DNA of 64,000 bases from Alphaproteobacteria bacterium (GTDB taxonomy: Bacteria; Pseudomonadota; Alphaproteobacteria; UBA6615). Location: the NCBI GenBank assembly GCA_039980135.1, contig JBDXCV010000003.1, positions 963,458 to 1,027,457 on the forward strand, read 5' to 3'. The notes below the pieces were generated by a model. The model was not told the DNA's origin and did no database searches. It saw nothing but the letters and a program-made list of their open reading frames with translations. Below, in pieces: positions 7,291 to 48,560 of the stretch; position 1 is the stretch's first letter, and the number at the start of each line of letters is the position of its first letter. The position numbers were made by a program, and so were the translations under genes.

Positions 7291-9000
7291 ATGGCCTATT
7301 CGATCAATCATTCCGACTACGCCTCCATGTTCGGCCCCACAGTCGGCGACCGGGTCCGACTGGCCGACACCGAACTCGTGATCGAGGTCGAGCGCGACCA
7401 CACGATCTATGGCGAAGAGGTCAAATTCGGCGGCGGCAAGGTCATCCGTGACGGCATGGGACAATCCCAGGCCAGCCGTGCGGATGGTGCCGTGGATACC
7501 GTCATTACCAATGCGCTGATCGTCGATCACTGGGGAATCGTGAAGGCCGATATCGGCATCCGCGACGGCCGCATCACCGGCGTGGGGAAGGCGGGAAACC
7601 CCGACGTCCAGCCGGGAATCGATATAGTCATCGGGCCGGGCACGGAGGTCATTGCGGGCGAAGGCCGGATCGTCACCGCCGGCGCCATCGATGCGCATAT
7701 CCACTGGATCAGCCCGCAGCAGATCGAGGAGGCCCTGTATTCCGGGGTCACGACGATGCTCGGCGGGGGCACCGGACCGGCCGAAGGCACCAACGCGACC
7801 ACCTGCACACCGGGCCCGTGGCATCTGGCGCGCATGATTCAGGCCGCCGAAGGCTTCCCGGTTAATCTCGGCTTCTTCGGCAAGGGTAACGCGACGCTGC
7901 CCGACGCCCTGAAAGAGCAGGTGGATGGCGGCGCATGCGGCCTCAAGTTGCATGAAGACTGGGGCACGACCCCGGCGGCGATCGATGCCTGCCTGTCCGT
8001 CGCCGAGGAGATGGACGTTCAGGTCGCGATCCATACCGATACATTGAATGAATCCGGTTTTGTGGAAGATACGATCGCCGCCTTCAAGGGGCGCACGATC
8101 CACGCGTTTCACACGGAGGGCGCCGGGGGTGGCCACGCGCCGGACATCATTCGTTTATGTGGCGAGGAGAACGTATTGCCGTCCTCGACCAACCCGACGC
8201 GGCCCTACACGATCAACACGGTCGACGAACATCTCGACATGCTGATGGTCTGCCACCATCTGGATTCCCGCATTCCCGAGGATGTCGCGTTCGCCGAAAG
8301 CCGGATCCGGCGCGAGACGATCGCGGCGGAAGATATCCTGCATGATCTCGGCGCATTCTCGATGATCGCGTCCGACAGCCAGGCGATGGGCCGGGTCGGC
8401 GAGGTGGTGATTCGGACCTGGCAGACGGCCGACAAGATGAAACGCCAGCGTGGCGCACTGCCCGGCGAGGCCGGCGACAATGACAATCTGCGCGTGCGCC
8501 GTTATATCGCCAAATACACGATCAATCCGGCGCTGTGTCACGGGATCGCCGACCATGTGGGCTCGGTCGAGGCCGGCAAACTGGCCGATCTGGTGCTGTG
8601 GAAGCCCATGTTCTTCGGCGTGAAACCGGACCTGATCGTCAAGGCCGGCACGATCGCCGGCGCAGCCATGGGTGACCCCAACGCCTCGATCCCGACCCCC
8701 CAGCCGGTGCACTACCGGCCGATGTTCGGCAGTTTCGGCGCGTCGCAGACTGCGAGCGCAGTGACGTTCGTCTCTGCCGCCGCGGCGGGGACGGATATGG
8801 CCGCGCAACTCGGCCTTGCACGGGAGTTGTTGCCGATATCAGGCACACGTTCGGTGACCAAGAAGGACATGATCCTGAACGATGCGACCCCCGATATGGA
8901 GGTCGACCCGGAGACCTATGAGGTGCGCGCGGACGGTGAATTGCTGACCTGTGAACCGGCGGAGGAGCTGGCCATGGCCCAGCGGTACTTCCTGTTTTGA
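7291..9000 (+). CDS. ureC: Urease alpha (catalytic) subunit UreC
   Basis: This is the nickel-containing catalytic subunit, 569 residues. All expected active-site residues are present: His136 and His138 (DAHIHW), the carbamylated Lys219 (GLKLHEDWG) with His221, His248 (AIHTDTLNE), His274 (HAFHTEG), the flap Cys321-His322-His323 (MVCHHLD) and Asp362 (ASDSQAMG). Numbering is offset by two from the Klebsiella enzyme. The protein looks intact and functional. Its stop codon overlaps the TTG start of ureE. Confidence 0.98.
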
Positions 9001-29995: not shown

Positions 29996-31051
29996 TTGGC
30001 AGATAGCTACACGATTTGTTTGCTGCCCGGAGACGGTATCGGGCCGGAGGTGATCGACTGCGCGCGCCGCGTACTCGATGCCCTCACGGCGGCGGGCGGG
30101 CCTGCATTCGCCTATGATGTGCAACCGGCCGGCCACGGTACGTTTCTCGAAGGCGGTCATTCCATGCCGGCCGCCACGATGACCGCTGCGAAAAAGGCCG
30201 ACGCGGTATTCCTTGGCGCCATGGACGTTGCCGAAATTTCGCCGGACGGAGGCGACCCGTTGGGGGAGCTGCGCATTGCGCTGGAAGTCGGGGCCAGTGT
30301 CCGCCCGTCCCGGACGCTCGCCGGGATCGCGTCTCCGGCCGCAGATATCGATTGTGTCGTCGTGCGCGAAGTGACCGAGGGGCTTTATACCCGCATCGAA
30401 TATCCGGTCGGCGACGACGCGGCCTGCGCGGTTCGTGTCATCACCCGCGGTGCGTCTCTCAAGACCGCGCGTATGGCGTTTGAGCAGGCGGCGGCGCGAC
30501 AACGTACGCGCGCCGCCGCAGGCATCGACAAGCCGGCGCGGGTCACCGCGGTACACAAGATCGGCGTGCTCAAGCTCACGGACGGGCTGTTTCTCGACGC
30601 CTGCGCCACCGTGGCGCGGGATTATCCGGATATCGAATATGAGACCCGGAATATCGATGCCTGTGCCATGGATATGGTCCGCGAACCGGGCCACTTTGAC
30701 GTCATCCTGGCGACGAATGCCTTCGGCGACATCCTGTCCGATGTCGCGGCGGGCCTCGCCGCGGGCCTCGGGCTTGCGGCGTCGGCGTGCATCGGTGATC
30801 GCTGGGCCTATTTCGAGCCGGTGCATGGCACCGCGCCGGATATTGCGGGCCGGGGGATCGCCAATCCATGCGCGACAATTCTGAGTGCGGCGATGATGCT
30901 GCGCTATCTGGGCGAAGATGCATATGCCGGCGCGGTCGAGCAGGCGGTCTATACCGTGATCGCGGCGGGTGTTGTGCGGACCGGAGATCTCGGTGGCACG
31001 GCGAACAGTTCCGAGATGACCGACGCGATCATCGAAGCCCTGGCCATCTAG
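29996..31051 (+). CDS. Isopropylmalate/isocitrate-type (tartrate-like) dehydrogenase
   Basis: This 351-residue NAD-dependent beta-hydroxyacid oxidative decarboxylase opens with YTICLLPGDGIGPEVI. It contains REVTEGLYTRIEY, the catalytic-lysine region AVHKIGVLKLTDGLF, and the metal/NAD site EPVHGTAPDIAGRGIANP. The isopropylmalate-specific context (leuC, leuD) is missing, and a TRAP transporter gene converges on it, so tartrate or another substituted malate is as likely as 3-isopropylmalate. A TTG start at 29996 with GGAGG upstream is chosen; GTG at 29978 is possible. Confidence 0.82.
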   Translation: MADSYTICLLPGDGIGPEVIDCARRVLDALTAAGGPAFAYDVQPAGHGTFLEGGHSMPAATMTAAKKADAVFLGAMDVAEISPDGGDPLGELRIALEVGASVRPSRTLAGIASPAADIDCVVVREVTEGLYTRIEYPVGDDAACAVRVITRGASLKTARMAFEQAAARQRTRAAAGIDKPARVTAVHKIGVLKLTDGLFLDACATVARDYPDIEYETRNIDACAMDMVREPGHFDVILATNAFGDILSDVAAGLAAGLGLAASACIGDRWAYFEPVHGTAPDIAGRGIANPCATILSAAMMLRYLGEDAYAGAVEQAVYTVIAAGVVRTGDLGGTANSSEMTDAIIEALAI

Positions 31052-32340
31052 GCCAGGAGCCGTGGCAACCAGAGTGCCAGGCCCGGCAGGAACACGACCG
31101 CCAGAAGCCGGACGATATCGGCGGCGAAGAATGGCACGATGCCCTTGAAGATGGCGCCCAGCGGCACGTCGGGCAGCATCGACTTGATCACGAAAACATT
31201 CAGCCCGATGGGCGGGGTGATCAGGCTGATCTCGACGACCATCACCATGACAATACCGAACCAGATCAGGTCAAAGCCCATGGCGTCGACCACCGGCACG
31301 AAAACCGGCACCGTCAGGAAGATCATCGCAAGGCCCTCGATGATCGTGCCAAGCAGGATGTAGATGGCCAGGATCACCAGAATGACGGTGATCGGCGCGA
31401 TATCGAGTGACTGAATGAATGTCACGATCGCGTTGGGCAGGCCTGCGACATTGACGAAATTGTTCAGGATCAGCGCGCCGAAGGCGATGGTGAAGATCAT
31501 CGCCGTCGTCTCGGCCGCCTCGGCCAGCGCGAAAAAGAAGATGCGCAGGTTCATGCGCCGCCGCGCCATGGCAAACAGCAACGCGCCGATGGCGCCGATC
31601 CCGCCGCCCTCGGTCGGGGTGAAGATGCCGAAGGAGATGCCGCCGATGATCGCCAGGAACAGCACCAGCACAGCCCAGATCTTCGACAGGGTGCGCCAGC
31701 GCACGGCCCAGCTACCGCGCTCCGCGCGCGGTGCCATACGGGGCCAGATTCTGGCCACGATCCAGATCACCGCGATGTACAGCAGGACCGTGATCAGGCC
31801 CGGGATCAGCCCGGCGATGAACAGATCGCCGATGCTTTGTTCCGTGAGGATGCCGTAGATGATCAGCGCCGCCGAGGGCGGGATTAGAATGCCCATCGTC
31901 CCGCCGGCCGCGACCGACCCGGCCGCGAAACCCTCATTGTATTCGTAGCGGCGCATGGGCGGAATCGAGACCTTCGCCATCGTCGCGGCAGTCGCCACGG
32001 ACGAACCCGAGATCGACGCGAAGCCGGCGCAGGCCGCGACCGTGGTCATCGCCAGTCCGCCACGCTTGTTGCCCAGCCAGGATTGGGCCGCCTCGTAGAT
32101 ATCCTCGGCCAGGGCCGCCCGGAACACGAACACCCCCATCAGGACGAACAGCGGCAGGGTCACGAAGTTGGCGTTGAGCGCGAGGTCGAGGATCTGCTGG
32201 CTGACGGTCTCGAGCGCGGGACCGGTGCCGCGGATGACGGCGAACCCGGCGAACCCGACCAGAATCATGGAGAAGCCGAGCGGGAAACCCAGAAAGGCGA
32301 TGATCAGCAAGACGCCGAACCCGGCAAGTGAAATCGCCAT
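31048..32340 (-). CDS. dctM: TRAP transporter large permease subunit (DctM-like)
   Basis: This 430-residue inner-membrane protein has about 12 hydrophobic helices and couples sodium gradient to uptake of the solute handed over by DctP. The conserved segments SGSSVATAATMAKVSIPPM and the preceding ACAGFASI identify the family. Its ATG overlaps the dctQ stop (TGATG). The C-terminus overlaps the dehydrogenase gene by 4 bases tail to tail. Confidence 0.93.
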   Translation of the reverse strand: MAISLAGFGVLLIIAFLGFPLGFSMILVGFAGFAVIRGTGPALETVSQQILDLALNANFVTLPLFVLMGVFVFRAALAEDIYEAAQSWLGNKRGGLAMTTVAACAGFASISGSSVATAATMAKVSIPPMRRYEYNEGFAAGSVAAGGTMGILIPPSAALIIYGILTEQSIGDLFIAGLIPGLITVLLYIAVIWIVARIWPRMAPRAERGSWAVRWRTLSKIWAVLVLFLAIIGGISFGIFTPTEGGGIGAIGALLFAMARRRMNLRIFFFALAEAAETTAMIFTIAFGALILNNFVNVAGLPNAIVTFIQSLDIAPITVILVILAIYILLGTIIEGLAMIFLTVPVFVPVVDAMGFDLIWFGIVMVMVVEISLITPPIGLNVFVIKSMLPDVPLGAIFKGIVPFFAADIVRLLAVVFLPGLALWLPRLLA

Positions 32341-32912
32341 CAGCCGTCTCCCCCCGCGCCGGTCGCGCGTTTGGCGAGAAGCATCCGGACCATATAAAGC
32401 TGTGTGAGTACGCTCATCGCGCTGAGCGCCGTGAGCGCAAACAGAAGCGGTGCTGTCTCCACCTGGAGGTGGAGTGAGATTTCGTCATACTCCGCCATCT
32501 CGCGCCCGGTCGCCCACATGCGGGACGTGATGAATCCCAACACGCCTGCGTTGGCGAGAAGGACGATAATCTCGCGGACACGCTTGAAGCCCTCGCTCAT
32601 GAATCCGTCGAACAACTCCACGGTGATGTGGGCGTCCTTCGCGACAACGAGCGGCAGGGCGGAGAAGATGAGAAGCCCGAGCAGGAATTCGATGATTTCG
32701 ACCCCGCCGGGTATCGGGCTTGAAAAAACGTAACGCCCCGTCACATCGACAAAGGTCACGCCCGCAATAGATGCCATGAAGATGGCGGCGATGCCCGTGA
32801 GGATGCGGATCGGCCAGGCGAAACCGCCGGCCCTGGAGGCGGGGACGGCGTAGTCCTCGGCCAGGGCGTCTTCGTTGATATCGAGGGGGTCTGCGGTCAA
32901 GAGATCACCCAA
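32340..32912 (-). CDS. dctQ: TRAP transporter small permease subunit (DctQ-like)
   Basis: This 190-residue membrane protein with four hydrophobic helices forms the helper subunit of the TRAP permease. An N-terminal cytoplasmic stretch of about 33 residues precedes the first helix. Family features include GRYVFSSPIPGGVEIIEFLLGLL. The longest reading starts with TTG at 32912, with a weak AAGAA upstream. It is placed between dctP, from which it is separated by a strong hairpin, and dctM, which it overlaps. Confidence 0.88.
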   Translation of the reverse strand: MGDLLTADPLDINEDALAEDYAVPASRAGGFAWPIRILTGIAAIFMASIAGVTFVDVTGRYVFSSPIPGGVEIIEFLLGLLIFSALPLVVAKDAHITVELFDGFMSEGFKRVREIIVLLANAGVLGFITSRMWATGREMAEYDEISLHLQVETAPLLFALTALSAMSVLTQLYMVRMLLAKRATGAGGDG

Positions 32913-32934
32913 TTCTTGATTGAAGGCAGCGGAT

Positions 32935-32968
32935 CAGCCGCCGTCGGGTTCAATCCCGGCGGCGGCTG
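32935..32968 (-). promoter_or_regulatory. Intergenic GC hairpin between dctP and dctQ
   Basis: Arms CAGCCGCCGTCGGG (32935-32948) and CCCGGCGGCGGCTG (32955-32968) form 14 consecutive pairs with one T-G wobble on the strand shown and a 6-base loop. On the transcribed minus strand it follows the dctP stop. There is no U-tract. It is the counterpart of the hairpins after urtA and tctC. Confidence 0.65.
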
Positions 32969-32996
32969 CGCATGCATCGGCGTGATGCGGCGTTCG

Positions 32997-34016
32997 CTAC
33001 TTCAACTGTTCGCGGAAGAAGGCCAGCGCGGCGGCGCCGTCGATTCCCTTGGCGTTTGCCGTTGCGACCCAATCGGCTTCCATTTTCTCGGCGAACTTAC
33101 GGATTACCGCCAAGACTTCCGCGTCCGCTTCGACCACCTGGCCGCCGTCTTCCTGCAGCTTTTTCAAAGCGCCGTCGGCGATCCGGTCCATGCCCGGCCC
33201 CTTGGCCGAAACATAGGCGCCGGAAACGCTCATCACCTGGGCCTGCTGGTCGGCGGTCAGGCTGTCCCACTTGTCCTTGTTCATGAGCAGGGAGAATGTC
33301 GTGTTCGACATGCCGCCGGGGAAGGTCGTGACGGCCTTGATGTAGGGTTGCATGCGGAACGCCGGGAGTCCGTGTGCCGGAACCGCGACACCGTCCACGA
33401 CACCCTTTGAAATCAGGCCGAAGATCTTCGACGGCCCGGATGCGACCGGCACGGCACCAAGTTCCTTCAGGACATTGGTGGCGACACCCGGTGAGGCACG
33501 CAGCTTGTACCCCTTGAGGTCATCGAGGGTGACGATCGGACCGGTCCCGCTGTGGATGACATTCGGTGTCAGCGAGAAAGAGCCCAGAAGCACCGCGCCG
33601 TCATACTCGTTGGCGGCGGCGAAAAACTTTTCATGCGTGTTCCACAGCGCCGCGGAAGTTTTCTCGGACGATCCCGAGTTCAACGGGATTTCCGCAACCG
33701 GCGGCATCTGGATGCGTTTCGGCTGGAACAGGTTGGCGAGAACGACGACGTCCGCGACACCCTTGGTGACGGTCTGCCAGTTCTTCGGGGGCGGACCGAC
33801 AGCGGCGGCCGACAGCTTCGGCACGACCGCGCCGTTGGTGGCCTTGGCGACATCCTCGACCCAGGGCGCAACGATCTGCGTCTGGAACGGGTGCTTGGGC
33901 GGCAGGTAGTTGTTGATCAGGACTTCGGTTTGCGCCGATGCCGACGAGGCAAAAGCCAGTCCGGCGGCAACGAGTGTGCCCGATAGAATCGTCGTGACAG
34001 TCAATTTCGATGACAT
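32997..34016 (-). CDS. dctP: TRAP transporter solute-binding protein (DctP family)
   Basis: This is a 339-residue periplasmic binding protein. The signal peptide is about residues 1-28 (ending ASAQ), followed by the mature start TEVLINNYLPPKHPFQ. The arginine-bearing segment GYKLRASPGVATNVLKELGA near residues 165-184 corresponds to the carboxylate-binding site of TRAP binding proteins, so the ligand is probably an organic acid. The start at 34016 is chosen at the signal peptide; upstream in-frame sequence is not coding-like. First gene of the dctPQM operon. Confidence 0.92.
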   Translation of the reverse strand: MSSKLTVTTILSGTLVAAGLAFASSASAQTEVLINNYLPPKHPFQTQIVAPWVEDVAKATNGAVVPKLSAAAVGPPPKNWQTVTKGVADVVVLANLFQPKRIQMPPVAEIPLNSGSSEKTSAALWNTHEKFFAAANEYDGAVLLGSFSLTPNVIHSGTGPIVTLDDLKGYKLRASPGVATNVLKELGAVPVASGPSKIFGLISKGVVDGVAVPAHGLPAFRMQPYIKAVTTFPGGMSNTTFSLLMNKDKWDSLTADQQAQVMSVSGAYVSAKGPGMDRIADGALKKLQEDGGQVVEADAEVLAVIRKFAEKMEADWVATANAKGIDGAAALAFFREQLK

Positions 34017-34154
34017 ACGTATCTCCTCCCAGAGAATATTTCGTTCATTGTTGTTCGTCTTCGGCAAATAGATGCCGTGCATCTCCCAGAATGCGGAACT
34101 GTCTACGAGATTACCACTCGCAGGCATCGAAGTAACGGACTCGTGTAATTGCAT

Positions 34155-34170
34155 TTCGTCTGATGACGAA
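34155..34170. promoter_or_regulatory. Inverted repeat TTCGTC-N4-GACGAA, candidate operator
   Basis: A perfect 6-bp inverted repeat with a 4-base spacer lies in the divergent intergenic region. Its size suits a dimeric helix-turn-helix regulator. No regulator gene is adjacent, so the assignment rests on symmetry and position. Confidence 0.4.
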
Positions 34171-34176
34171 CTTGAA

Positions 34177-34189
34177 CCCGGTATCCGGG
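34177..34189. promoter_or_regulatory. Inverted repeat CCCGG-TAT-CCGGG, candidate operator
   Basis: A perfect 5-bp inverted repeat with a 3-base centre lies 6 bases after the TTCGTC repeat in the same divergent region. It could be part of the same control site or a small 5'-UTR hairpin. Confidence 0.3.
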
Positions 34190-34322
34190 GGAGTATTAGA
34201 GGCATCGTATGTTTCCATTGTGACCGGATTATCGGGGTTGGTGGGGGCCTTTTGATTGGCATCCCATCCGGCTAGGATCGGTCGAAAGGCCGGAGGCCGA
34301 AAAAAAATTGGGGAACGAGATC

Positions 34323-35183
34323 ATGACCATCACCGACCTGCCGTCCGTTACCACCGAGGATATCGAGATTTATCGCCACGGCGACCGACCCATGGTCGTG
34401 CGGTTGATCCGCCCTGAGGGTGAGGGTCCGTTCCCGGCCATTCTCGATATGCATGGGGGCTGCTGGTGCAAGGGCGGACCCGAAGAGTGCGGCGTCCGCG
34501 GCGAGGTCTTTGCCAGGGCCGGCATGGCTTCCGCGGCGCTGGATTTTCGCCAGGCGGCCGATACCTATCCGTCGTCGCTGGAGGACATCAATTATGCCGT
34601 GCGCTGGCTGAAGGCCCACGCCGGCGCGTTGCGTCTCGACGCCGGCCGGATCGGCATTCTGGGCCAGTCCAGCGGGGGCCATCTCGCGATGCTGGCGGCG
34701 ATGCGCCCGAACGAGCCGCGCTATGGCGCGCTTGCGCTTGAACCCGATGCGCCCGATGTCGATGCAAGCGTGTGCTGCGTCGGTGTGATGTGGCCGGTGA
34801 TCAACCCCCTGTCGCGCTACCGGCGCGTCATGTCGCTGCGCGCCGCGGGTGACCCGCCGGGCTGGGTCGCCGACCTGCCGGAGCGCCACGACACCTATTG
34901 GGTGACGGAAGCCAACATGGAAGAGGCCAATCCGATGCTGGCACTTGAGCGCGGCGAGGCTGTCGAGACATTGCCGGCCATATGGTTCCAGGGAACGCCG
35001 GACCCGGTACACGACTATCGCGATCCGGACTCGCCCCTCGACCTCAACGAGCCCGAGCGTTTCGCCGAGAATTACCGCAAGGCGGGCGGCGCCATCGAGA
35101 TCGTCCATGTGGCACAGGCCGACCGGTCGGACCCGGCGCTCCTGGGGCCGCTTGTCGCGTTCTTCCAGAAGCATCTTTCCTAG
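34323..35183 (+). CDS. Alpha/beta hydrolase, hormone-sensitive-lipase-like (carboxylesterase family)
   Basis: This is a 286-residue cytoplasmic esterase-type hydrolase. The oxyanion-hole motif HGG is at residues 44-46 and the nucleophile elbow GQSSGG at 114-119 (Ser116), as in HSL/alpha-beta hydrolase fold-3 enzymes. A His near the C-terminus (EIVHVAQAD) would complete the triad. A TTG 15 bases upstream (34308) is an alternative start. First gene of a cluster with an NmrA-like protein, a cupin and a putative selenoprotein. Confidence 0.87.
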   Translation: MTITDLPSVTTEDIEIYRHGDRPMVVRLIRPEGEGPFPAILDMHGGCWCKGGPEECGVRGEVFARAGMASAALDFRQAADTYPSSLEDINYAVRWLKAHAGALRLDAGRIGILGQSSGGHLAMLAAMRPNEPRYGALALEPDAPDVDASVCCVGVMWPVINPLSRYRRVMSLRAAGDPPGWVADLPERHDTYWVTEANMEEANPMLALERGEAVETLPAIWFQGTPDPVHDYRDPDSPLDLNEPERFAENYRKAGGAIEIVHVAQADRSDPALLGPLVAFFQKHLS

Positions 35184-35206
35184 CCGCTTCCAGCGAGGGC
35201 AACGCA

Positions 35207-36076
35207 ATGTCCGGATCTTTGATCGCCGTGACCGGCGTGACCGGAGTCACAGGCCGGCTTTTGGCGCCGCGGCTGGCGGCGCTCGGGCTCGATGTTCGCT
35301 ATCTGGTGCGCGATGTGGAAAAGGCGCGCCGGGCCCTTGGGCCGGAAGCCGAACTGGTCGAGGCAGACCTCGACAACCGCGCGTCCTACGACCGGGCGCT
35401 CGCGGGCGTCCACACGCTGTACCTGAACTCGGGTCACAGTCCGATTCTCGAACAGCAGCAGGCCAATGCGATCGAGGCAGCTGTAGCCGCGGGATGCGAA
35501 CGCATTGTGAAACTCTCAGGCAATGTCGATTCACCCGCGCCGATACCGGAGGCTCACAAGGCGTTGGAAGCGAAGATCGCGGCGTGCGGCCTGCGCTACA
35601 CATTCCTGCGGCCGAATTTCTACATGACCAACCTGCATTACCTCGCGGCGGGGCTGAAGGACGGCGATGTGTTCACCAGCGCGATCCCGCGCGATGTGAC
35701 CATGAGCATGACCGACCCGCGCGACGTGGCCGACCTGGCCGCGACGGTGCTCGCCCAGGACGGCCGACATGACGGCGAGGGTTACTACCAGACCGGCGCC
35801 GCCGTGAGCCTCGACGATGTCGCGGAGACCTTCAGCCGGGTGCTGGGCCGGGCCATCCGCTACGAGATGGTCGATGTCGAGGTCTGGGAAGATATCGTCA
35901 CGAAACGCGGCCTGCCGTCCTGGCTGATCGAGCATCAGGTGAAGATGATCGGCTTCGCCGCCAACGGCGCCTATTCCTACGTCACGAACGTAACGCAAGA
36001 GATTGCGGGTCACCCGGCGCGCACGCTTGAGGAATTCATAACCGACCATGCCGGTGCCTTCGCCCTGGGGGGCTGA
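35207..36076 (+). CDS. NmrA-like NAD(P)-binding protein (atypical SDR)
   Basis: This is a 289-residue Rossmann-fold protein. The dinucleotide-binding motif GVTGVTGRL is at about residues 9-17, and RYLVRDVEKARR follows strand 2. The catalytic YxxxK of classical dehydrogenases is not evident, as in NmrA/quinone-reductase-like members that sense or reduce NAD(P)-linked substrates. The start at 35207 is the first ATG before the Rossmann motif. It follows the hydrolase by 23 bases and precedes the cupin. Confidence 0.85.
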   Translation: MSGSLIAVTGVTGVTGRLLAPRLAALGLDVRYLVRDVEKARRALGPEAELVEADLDNRASYDRALAGVHTLYLNSGHSPILEQQQANAIEAAVAAGCERIVKLSGNVDSPAPIPEAHKALEAKIAACGLRYTFLRPNFYMTNLHYLAAGLKDGDVFTSAIPRDVTMSMTDPRDVADLAATVLAQDGRHDGEGYYQTGAAVSLDDVAETFSRVLGRAIRYEMVDVEVWEDIVTKRGLPSWLIEHQVKMIGFAANGAYSYVTNVTQEIAGHPARTLEEFITDHAGAFALGG

Positions 36077-36120: not shown

Positions 36121-36780
36121 ATGAATATCGTCCGCTTCGAGAGTGTTCCGTGGCAAGACCGTGTCAACGTCGACAACTGGCCCTGCAAGACCCGGACGCT
36201 CTATGACAATCAGGACACCGGCCTGTCCATGCGCATGGTCAACTATCCGGTCGGCTCGACCGAACCGCGCCATGTGCATGCCGGAATGCATGCCGCCACG
36301 GTGGTGCGGAACCGTGCCATTGTGGATGGCGTCACGCTTCGGCCGCTCGATGTCCTGGTGGGCCCGAGCAACGAACCGCATGGCCCGATCGAGTATCCGG
36401 AAGGGTGCTGGCTGCTGTCGGCATTTCAGGGCAGCAACCATCATTCCGAGGTCGAAAATCTCTCCGAGGAAAAATTCTACAAGCTGGTCCTGCAGGAAGA
36501 AATTCCCTGGCGATCGGAGCCCGGCGGCGGCGAATTCAAGACCCTGGTCGATCGTGGCCTCGGACAGCTCCTTGTCGAGGCGGTCCGCCTGAAGGCCGGA
36601 GAGCGGATCAAGCCGGCCTTCCTTGCGGCGCTGCTGATCGAGGGGGATGTCTCCGTGGGCGATGAAAAGCTCGAAGTCTGGGACTATGTTTACGCCGACG
36701 AGGGTGACCCTCGTGAGGATCTGGTTTGCAACGGTGATGCCAAAATGCTGGCCTGGACGATGCGCGATCTGGATGCCTAG
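36121..36780 (+). CDS. Cupin-domain protein
   Basis: This 219-residue protein has two cupin-like halves. The first has a likely metal site, EPRHVHAGMHA (about residues 41-51), and EPHGPIEYP; the second half (about residues 135-205) keeps the beta-barrel pattern but lacks the histidines (IKPAFLAALLIEGDV). It may therefore be a one-metal bicupin dioxygenase, isomerase or binding protein. GGGGAAA precedes the ATG. Third gene of the hydrolase-NmrA-cupin-CMD cluster. Confidence 0.8.
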   Translation: MNIVRFESVPWQDRVNVDNWPCKTRTLYDNQDTGLSMRMVNYPVGSTEPRHVHAGMHAATVVRNRAIVDGVTLRPLDVLVGPSNEPHGPIEYPEGCWLLSAFQGSNHHSEVENLSEEKFYKLVLQEEIPWRSEPGGGEFKTLVDRGLGQLLVEAVRLKAGERIKPAFLAALLIEGDVSVGDEKLEVWDYVYADEGDPREDLVCNGDAKMLAWTMRDLDA

Positions 36781-36857
36781 GCCCGGAAATTTACGGTGAG
36801 CCCAGGCCGGCTTCGACCGGATCGGGCGGAATGGAAAATCTCGAAAAGGAAACTGAA

Positions 36858-37514
36858 ATGGCGCGTTTGAGTCTTGTCGATATAGACAGTTTTACCGGCC
36901 CATTGGCGGAACGCTACGAGTACATCAAACGGTCCGTCGGACGCGTGAATACGCTGGTCAGAGTATTTGCCCACCTTCCCGAGGTGAGCAAATTCCTGAT
37001 GTTCAATCCGATGGTCATACAGCGCGAGGGGGCCGGCGGAATTCTCTCGACCCGGATCAAGGAGATGGTGGTCATCAAGACCAGCCTTATCAACGGGTGC
37101 CAGCATTGAATTGAGCACAATACGTCGCTTGGTCAAGGGACGGGAATTACAGAAGAACAGTTTCAGGCAATCGAGTCTGACGACTACATGACAGCCGCGT
37201 GCCTGACGCCGCGTCAACGGACCGCCGTTCTGTGGGCCGAACATATGACGCGGAATACGGCGAAGTACCGCAAGGATGTGTTCGAGCAGCTTCAGTCGCT
37301 CTTTACCGAGCCCGAGATTCTCGAGCTCACACTGGTTTGCGGTGTTTTCAACATGAACAACCGGATAGCCGATTCACTCCACATCGATATCCATGAGAGT
37401 GACGTGAAAACGATGAAGGGGTCGATCCGGACAAACCCCGAAGACGTTCGTGGCTATCTACAGAATCTGCTCGACACCTGGCCCGAATCCTTTCCCGAGC
37501 CGTCGGACGATTGA
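36858..37514 (+). CDS. Putative selenoprotein: AhpD/carboxymuconolactone-decarboxylase-family protein with in-frame UGA (Sec84)
   Basis: The frame runs from ATG 36858 through an in-frame TGA (37107-37109) to TGA 37512-37514, giving 218 residues if the first TGA is read as selenocysteine. The context is CQH-U-IEH: Cys81, Sec84, His87, with Glu69 twelve residues before Cys81 as in the Glu-CxxC-His relay of AhpD peroxidases. Sec would replace the peroxidatic cysteine. The cysteine homologue at 47814-48479 aligns on both sides: KTS-x3-x-CNYCTSH opposite KTSLINGCQHUIEH, and later WAE-x3-NTAK, LFTEPEI/LFTEAEI, N-x3-R-x3-SL. No other stop lies in the frame. A SECIS-like hairpin follows. AAGGA precedes 36858; ATG 36831 is an alternative. 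The less likely reading is a pseudogene from TGC/TGT to TGA. Standard gene calling gives two fragments (36858-37109 and 37188-37514). Confidence 0.8.
37123..37142 (+). promoter_or_regulatory. Candidate bacterial SECIS element
   Basis: CGTCGCTT (37123-37130) pairs with AAGGGACG (37135-37142) in 7 base pairs around one G-G mismatch, closed by the 4-base loop GGTC (37131-37134). The loop starts 21 bases after the TGA, inside the 16-37 base range accepted for bacterial SECIS elements. It has G in the first positions and the same GGUC core as the Escherichia coli fdhF SECIS loop. SelB would bind here to deliver Sec-tRNA. Confidence 0.7.
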
Positions 37515-47813: not shown

Positions 47814-48479
47814 CTATTCGGCTGCCTGTCGGCGTGATGCCTGACCGACGGCAGGAAACCGTCCGGCATAGGCTTCGATATCGTCGATTGTCAGGCCCGA
47901 TACGGCGCGTCCCTGCCGGCGGTTGTAATCCGCCGGCTCGAGCTCGACCCACAAACTGTCGTTGAAACGGTTCAACAGGTTGAAAAGGCCCGAACACATC
48001 GTGATTTCGACGATCTCGGCCTCCGTAAACAGACGCTTCATCTCGGCAAAGAGCTTCGAGTCCTGCTTGGCCGTGTTGAGGGTGTTCGCCTCGGCCCAGG
48101 CGATTGTCGCTTTGTCCCGTTCGCTGAAGGTCGCGCTGGTTTTCCAGGCATCCGTCGTCATTTCCTCGAGCTCTTTTTCTGTCAGGCCCAGCGCTTCACC
48201 ATAGAGCGACGTATGCGACGTGCAGTAGTTGCACTCGTTGGTCATCGACGTCTTGATCGATGCCAGCGCGCGCAGGCGCGGCTCGGTGGTGGCGCCCAAA
48301 CCAGGCTGACGCAGGGATGCGACGAGGCCGATGAACCAGCGTGACACATAGGGGCTGTGCTTGAGCAGCACCCGCGTCGAGTTCGCCGACCGCCCCAGAA
48401 GAAGCGCACAGGCATCCAGCACTTCGTGGTCCAGCACATCGGCTTCTTCGTCCGTAAGACCGGAGATACGTTGGGTCAT
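47814..48479 (-). CDS. AhpD-like carboxymuconolactone decarboxylase family protein (cysteine form)
   Basis: This is a 221-residue CMD-domain protein. The redox motif is Cys83-x-x-Cys86 with His89 (NECNYCTSH). It is the in-window homologue of the putative selenoprotein at 36858-37514, with the TGA of that gene opposite Cys86. The start at 48479 (MTQRISGLTDEE) is chosen as the natural N-terminus after GGGAGAA; the upstream extension is not supported. Two perfect 14-bp palindromes lie 30-95 bases upstream. Confidence 0.88.
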   Translation of the reverse strand: MTQRISGLTDEEADVLDHEVLDACALLLGRSANSTRVLLKHSPYVSRWFIGLVASLRQPGLGATTEPRLRALASIKTSMTNECNYCTSHTSLYGEALGLTEKELEEMTTDAWKTSATFSERDKATIAWAEANTLNTAKQDSKLFAEMKRLFTEAEIVEITMCSGLFNLLNRFNDSLWVELEPADYNRRQGRAVSGLTIDDIEAYAGRFPAVGQASRRQAAE

Positions 48480-48508
48480 GAATTTTCTCCCTGGATTCGA
48501 CCTGATCA

Positions 48509-48522
48509 GTCCGAATTCGGAC
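48509..48522. promoter_or_regulatory. Perfect 14-bp palindrome GTCCGAATTCGGAC
   Basis: This self-complementary sequence starts 30 bases upstream of the CMD gene start. It is a probable dimer-binding site for a transcription factor at the core promoter, with TGATCA immediately beside it. The regulator is not in the window. Confidence 0.45.
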
Positions 48523-48560
48523 ATCGGCATTTGCGCAAGCGGAAACGCCGGCAGCATTTC

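Follow-up and report, generated by a model that had tools for sequence, protein, structure and literature searches.

The 64,000-nucleotide stretch of DNA analyzed here (hereafter, the window) carries on its plus strand an AhpD-like (CMD family) gene at 36858..37514 that is predicted to encode a selenoprotein of 218 residues with selenocysteine (Sec, U) at residue 84. The reading frame starts with an ATG at 36858 and runs for 218 codons to a terminal TGA at 37512-37514; the only stop codon inside it is another TGA at 37107-37109, codon 84. This codon is found in the context INGCQHUIEHNTSLG, where it replaces the second Cys of a CxxC motif (C81-Q-H-U84-I-E-H87), and its coordinates, frame and codon number are those given in the initial annotation of this DNA. 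The read-through protein matched PF02627 with 33.7 bits (gathering cut-off 23). Neither of the two halves (36831-37106 and 37113-37511), when taken singly, had a Pfam match at E 0.001, which would explain the loss of the gene in routine annotation. A paralogue of the same family with Cys in place of Sec (CNYC) is encoded on the minus strand at 47814..48557. It is 33% identical to the window protein over 163 residues and has Cys opposite the TGA codon, as previously proposed from the sequence; its open reading frame, however, spans 47814-48557 and not 47814-48479.

Directly upstream of the CxxU gene is a plus-strand cupin gene (Cupin_7, ChrR type; 36121..36780), preceded on the same strand by a gene for an NmrA-like NAD(P)-binding protein (longest open reading frame 34982..36076, although the actual start is probably close to 35207, the position at which the orthologue starts) and by an alpha/beta hydrolase gene (BD-FAE/Abhydrolase_3; 34308..35183), the first of this four-gene set. 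The order hydrolase-NmrA-cupin-CxxU is kept on the contig of the closest orthologue, with identities of 87%, 85%, 92% and 98%, respectively. TRAP transporter genes (DctM, DctQ and DctP; 31048..34262, minus strand) diverge from the set in the window, and a divergent DctP gene (88% identity) also stands beside the orthologous set. The downstream genes differ, with LysR and hydantoinase genes in the window versus an FMN oxidoreductase gene next to the orthologue. The CNHU paralogue from the same genome is flanked by a gene for a TPP enzyme on one side and by TRAP transporter genes on the other, a Cupin_2 protein is encoded nearby, and no obvious common partner of the other Sec genes was found among the neighbours scanned. 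Elsewhere in the window, the Rfam model 5_ureB_sRNA matched positions 7443-7732 of the minus strand (78.9 bits); this match falls inside the urease alpha-subunit gene (7291-9000, plus strand) and may thus reflect coding conservation.

We retrieved 61 homologue matches at E 1e-20 from 22 of 95 genomes, the window's own included, and read 55 of them, the six unread ones all being listed without internal stops. Together with a distant paralogue (L008), these gave an alignment of 56 rows. A TGA occupied exactly the codon-84 site in 19 of the 55 matches, which came from 13 genomes of a single family and included, besides the window's gene, two more paralogues of its genome (CFYU and CNHU). The residues before the TGA were CQH, CRY, CFY, CNH, CAH, CKY or CNN. 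All of the remaining 37 rows had Cys at the site. An internal TGA was listed for 20 of the 61 matches and lay at the Sec codon in 19 of them, so the relatives do not show random stops elsewhere in the gene. The one exception (G023:C73:797-1405, L075) is a Cys homologue whose frame contains a TAG and, away from the Sec site, a TGA, and appears decayed or misassembled. In each of two genomes of the same genus (contigs G002:C42 and G006:C49), a CFYU gene and a CNNU gene, both of them Sec genes, are separated by about 12-15 kb.

The closest orthologue (in G004) is 98% identical to the window protein and keeps the TGA; over the gene, it is identical to JAQCFD010000040.1 of MAG casp40-mb.141. As this orthologue comes from another assembly, a sequencing error for TGC or TGT, which the initial annotation had named as a possible objection, is not borne out. 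Of the changes that separate the two genes, those preceding the TGA comprise 22 synonymous and 1 non-synonymous, and those following it 29 synonymous and 3 non-synonymous (dN 0.0097, dS 0.418 for the latter part). The gene is under purifying selection on both sides of the TGA.

With the full query, a search of 5.8 billion proteins at E 1e-20 returned 66 homologues, of which 45 have Cys, 4 Trp and 2 Ser at the Sec position, while 14 start after the site and 1 aligns there with an unrelated start. In the Trp-bearing homologues (P0016, P0025, P0032 and P0037; CKYW, CSYW), the Trp may stem from gene prediction under a different genetic code, in which TGA is translated as Trp. P0004 and P0005 have Ser for the first Cys but retain the Cys at the Sec site, which agrees with residue 84 being the one that reacts. 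The reverse is seen in P0052, where the first Cys is retained and Ser takes the Sec site, and in P0050 the two residues are Ala and Ser; both of these proteins speak against that assignment. Thirteen fragments of 134 residues (P0054-P0066), two of them named Nitrospinota, start about 5 codons after the Sec site; they are likely the downstream halves of selenoprotein genes, perhaps from another phylum. When the first half alone was searched at E 1e-5, it gave 38 clusters (including that of the window), every one of which ends in C-x-H or C-x-Y, exactly where the TGA would follow. Thirty of them are 83 residues long and 11 (own counted) show an identity of 65% or more across the entire query. 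Because full-length proteins were excluded by a length filter, it is by construction that all 38 are fragments, but their common end is not. The suspicion that normal gene calling splits or misses this gene thus holds for its relatives as well.

In addition to the recurrent TGA, we found a SECIS-like hairpin at 37123..37142 of the plus strand, with 4 + 3 pairs around a G.G mismatch and the loop GGUC at 37131-37134. Its small apical loop with a G shortly after the UGA is what is expected of bacterial selenoproteins. A hairpin with a GGUC loop could be formed in all 19 TGA genes, the loop being located +22 to +25 nt after the UGA, and in a free hairpin search it was the best one in 18 of the 19; in the exception, L069, another hairpin scored better, yet the 51-nt fold of this gene contains the GGUC hairpin. 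Seven to eight of the 8 pairs form in every Sec gene, versus 1-6 in each of the 37 Cys rows, and the GGTC loop is present in 19/19 Sec genes versus 5/37 Cys rows (Fisher p 1e-10). Folded alone, the window hairpin was unremarkable (z -1.45; 16 of 200 shuffles as stable).

We analyzed the covariation of this structure in 16 distinct Sec sequences, leaving out three duplicate downstream sequences, and in 35 Cys sequences as a control, leaving out one duplicate and L008. The shuffles used leave the relatedness among the sequences in place. For the Sec set, the score was 0.582, which none of 500 shuffles reached, and structures slid along the alignment scored at most 0.103. The number of cells changed on both sides (21) was reached by 16 of 500 shuffles, and further pair types were no more frequent than in shuffles (354 of 500 reached the count). 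The same structure gave a score of 0.114 in the Cys control, as high or higher in 183 of 500 shuffles, and showed no excess. When 13 sequences from outside the window's subgroup were used to build a covariance model, 37107-37148 ranked first in the window with 37.7 bits, the next match having 12.7 bits; part of this score is due to conserved coding sequence. The held-out hairpin model scored 37.1 bits for L036 and 30.2 bits for L037. It also gave 15.9 bits for L080 (G022:C52:7189-7728), a Cys gene (TGT at the site) that has the GGTC loop and can form 6 of the 8 pairs, which is possibly a former Sec gene with a decaying hairpin and might reflect a recent Sec-to-Cys change.

All four genes for selenocysteine synthesis and insertion that the initial annotation had proposed to look for were found in the window's genome (3.76 Mb, 15 contigs, 98.81% complete): selB (467 bits), the adjoining selA (583 bits), selD (284 bits) and tRNA-Sec (71.2 bits, anticodon tca). 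In the selD reading frame (G000:C3:827020-827928; L025:901-3123), SelD is preceded by a pyridine nucleotide-disulphide oxidoreductase domain at the N terminus, a fusion that resembles the Ndh-SelD proteins described in PMC2398784. Among the 13 genomes bearing TGA genes, selB was present in 12 and tRNA-Sec in 11. We found neither in G003 (87% complete) and no tRNA-Sec in G023 (84% complete), both of which have a TGA gene. The three other members of the family without selB (G008, G010 and G016) had no homologue match at E 1e-20. Formate dehydrogenase was considered as the main Sec user of the window's genome and rejected, its best and only match above the cut-off having no internal stop. A search of the same genome with a hairpin model (R1) yielded no match above noise other than the three CMD genes, the next one having 15.0 bits (E 0.83); this model was trained on these three genes among others, and selenoproteins with other hairpins could escape it.

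A tree of the 56 rows needs 4 changes between Sec and Cys, at least 2 of which are forced by well-supported branches, exact counts being unsafe because of long branches. In a sample of the class, 8 of 385 genomes had matches at E 1e-30, five of them from the window's own family (own included), and in a sample of the phylum the only match at this threshold among 398 genomes was in the window's own genome. In these searches, at most 7 candidates per genome were scored under a strict threshold and weaker relatives were not counted; in the genomes sampled, the group is found mainly in a single family. The protein-database search shows more homologues in metagenomes than the genome samples do.

Both the sequence and the structural model place the window protein in the AhpD-like superfamily. 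It scored 28 bits against the AhpD core domain model TIGR00778 (cut-off 27.8), and the best NCBIfam model by score was TIGR01926, peroxidase-related enzyme (64.8 bits, residues 3-176), whose cut-off of 81.8 it misses. With AhpD proper (TIGR00777), the score was 12.2 bits (E 0.12), below the cut-off of 191.95. The AlphaFold (AF2) model (pLDDT 92.4) has an all-helical AhpD-like fold, and the best PDB matches found with Foldseek are AhpD-like (2gmy, 2prr, 6k40, 3c1l and 2pfx), with Bmp8 slightly lower. We counted conserved residues in 53 aligned homologues, leaving out L008, L075 and L077. Cys81 and His87 are present in all 53, Glu69 is matched by Glu in 32, and the position +4 from the Sec site, Asn88, is Asn in 49, the conserved His being at +3.

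Given the TGA at the same codon in relatives, the matching hairpin and the complete Sec gene set, the TGA is very likely a Sec codon. In the mechanism that we propose, the predicted SelA, SelB, SelD and tRNA-Sec of the same genome would decode the UGA as Sec, with SelB binding the hairpin and inserting the residue. Sec84 would act as the attacking selenolate and would be resolved by Cys81 as a selenylsulfide, which a thiol reductant would then reduce. The enzyme may thereby reduce a peroxide or another electrophile arising from a catabolic route of the hydrolase-NmrA-cupin set. Its most likely function would then be that of a Sec-dependent thiol (selenol) peroxidase or reductase serving this route; the weak activity described for the Cys protein PA0269 (PMC3141380) counts against the peroxidase step. 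Taken as a whole, from Sec decoding to selenolate chemistry and reduction of a peroxide or electrophile in the route of the gene set, we regard this explanation as highly probable.

A selenoprotein that uses its selenol for reductive dehalogenation or disulfide exchange instead, in the manner of Bmp8 with its Cys, is rather unlikely. The debrominase Bmp8 is among the PDB matches of the window protein both by profile (4.1e-17) and by fold, the two have the CxxCxxH spacing in common, and the title of a PDB entry names a complex of the C82A variant with 2,3,4-tribromopyrrole. The Bmp8-type reaction is akin to deiodinase chemistry. However, PA0269 and Atu0492 outscore Bmp8 in the profile search, no halogen-related gene was found among the neighbours scanned, and the context is instead a hydrolase-NmrA-cupin set beside TRAP transporter genes. 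Bmp8 (6ohi, 6ohj) is a Cys enzyme with 15-16% identity to the window protein in the fold alignment. A limited literature search found no paper on Bmp8, nor any that combined 'peroxidase-related enzyme' with 'selenoprotein'.

We also considered a subfamily of AhpD-like selenoenzymes that existing models do not cover, expanded in this lineage, with its own SECIS and a dedicated selenium-dependent step in the hydrolase-NmrA-cupin set, maybe a deiodinase-like reductive dehalogenation and not a general defence against peroxides; this is an improbable reading as a whole. The window protein's group has up to three Sec paralogues per genome. If the reading were true, the subfamily would be a main reason for keeping the Sec machinery in this lineage, because the best formate dehydrogenase match lacks a TGA.

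Read-through of the UGA as Trp or another standard residue would agree with the Trp found at the site in 4 of the 66 database homologues, but Cys is found there in 45 of them, TGA also serves as a terminator (it is the final stop in 18 of the 56 rows), and both the Sec genes and the SECIS-like hairpin are present, all of which makes this reading very unlikely. A genuine stop or a sequencing error in a broken or miscalled gene has an even smaller chance of being correct: Cys homologues are common (37 of 56 rows) and the relative on G023:C73 does look decayed, yet 19 genes, the orthologue of another assembly among them, have the TGA at one and the same codon, selection extends beyond it, 7-8 of the 8 hairpin pairs form only in TGA genes, and the Sec machinery is complete. 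Sequencing error, pseudogene and stop reassignment were accordingly rejected on the recurring TGA, the selection, the hairpin, the Sec genes and the TGA terminators.

With Sec decoding as the preferred reading, a selenoprotein type so far counted mostly in metagenomic surveys is now linked to genomes with a complete set of Sec genes, with paralogues and with a defined gene context, which makes its function testable. As the group is present in protein databases as broken pieces, it can escape both homology searches and counts of selenoproteins. Since Sec paralogues coexist with related Cys paralogues in the same genome, a direct comparison of the benefit of selenium would be possible.

The relay of AhpD is described as Glu118, Cys130, His132, Cys133 and His137 (PMC3141380). 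According to this numbering for Mycobacterium tuberculosis AhpD, and in PA0269, the spacing Glu-x11-Cys-x2-Cys is that of the window protein, and the His before the second Cys in M. tuberculosis AhpD corresponds to His83. The second Cys of these proteins is replaced by Sec in the window protein, their His at +4 is found at +3, as in Bmp8, and the Glu is not conserved in the window's subgroup. Thus, of the AhpD relay layout proposed in the initial annotation, the spacing of Glu69, Cys81, His83 and U84 stands, whereas Glu69 is found in only 32 of 53 homologues and the last His is at +3, not +4. The term peroxidatic for the second-Cys position is taken over from the family.

Two other NCBIfam models, NF041238 (AhpD_rel_CFYUT, 357 positions) and NF053654 (GroundWater_YciW), are named for (seleno)proteins and have a domain homologous to that of the window protein. 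NF041238 gave 35.2 bits for the window protein and 30.1 bits for the CFYU paralogue L004 (cut-off 175), and NF053654 gave 53.5 bits, with a maximum of 66.3 among six homologues tested (cut-off 310). Compared with TIGR01926, the window protein has 42 residues beyond the matched part.

The precedent cited for the family is real: AhpD-like CxxU selenoproteins have been known since 2005 from the Sargasso Sea and GOS surveys (PMC1088965, PMC2398784), a 2006 survey of sequenced genomes (PMC1794560) included two COG2128 cases, and such proteins also appear in reviews (PMC9312934, PMC13188914). As described in those surveys, the Sargasso Sea and GOS forms (COG2128 and pfam02627) share the superfamily and the CxxU Sec position with the window protein, and part of them likely belong to its subgroup. 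What is added here is evidence at the genome level, the expansion of paralogues, the covariation in the hairpin, the shared gene set and the scores below the TIGR01926, NF041238 and NF053654 cut-offs; the window gene differs from the survey forms in that the Sec genes of its own genome, its paralogues, the covariation and the gene set are shown together.
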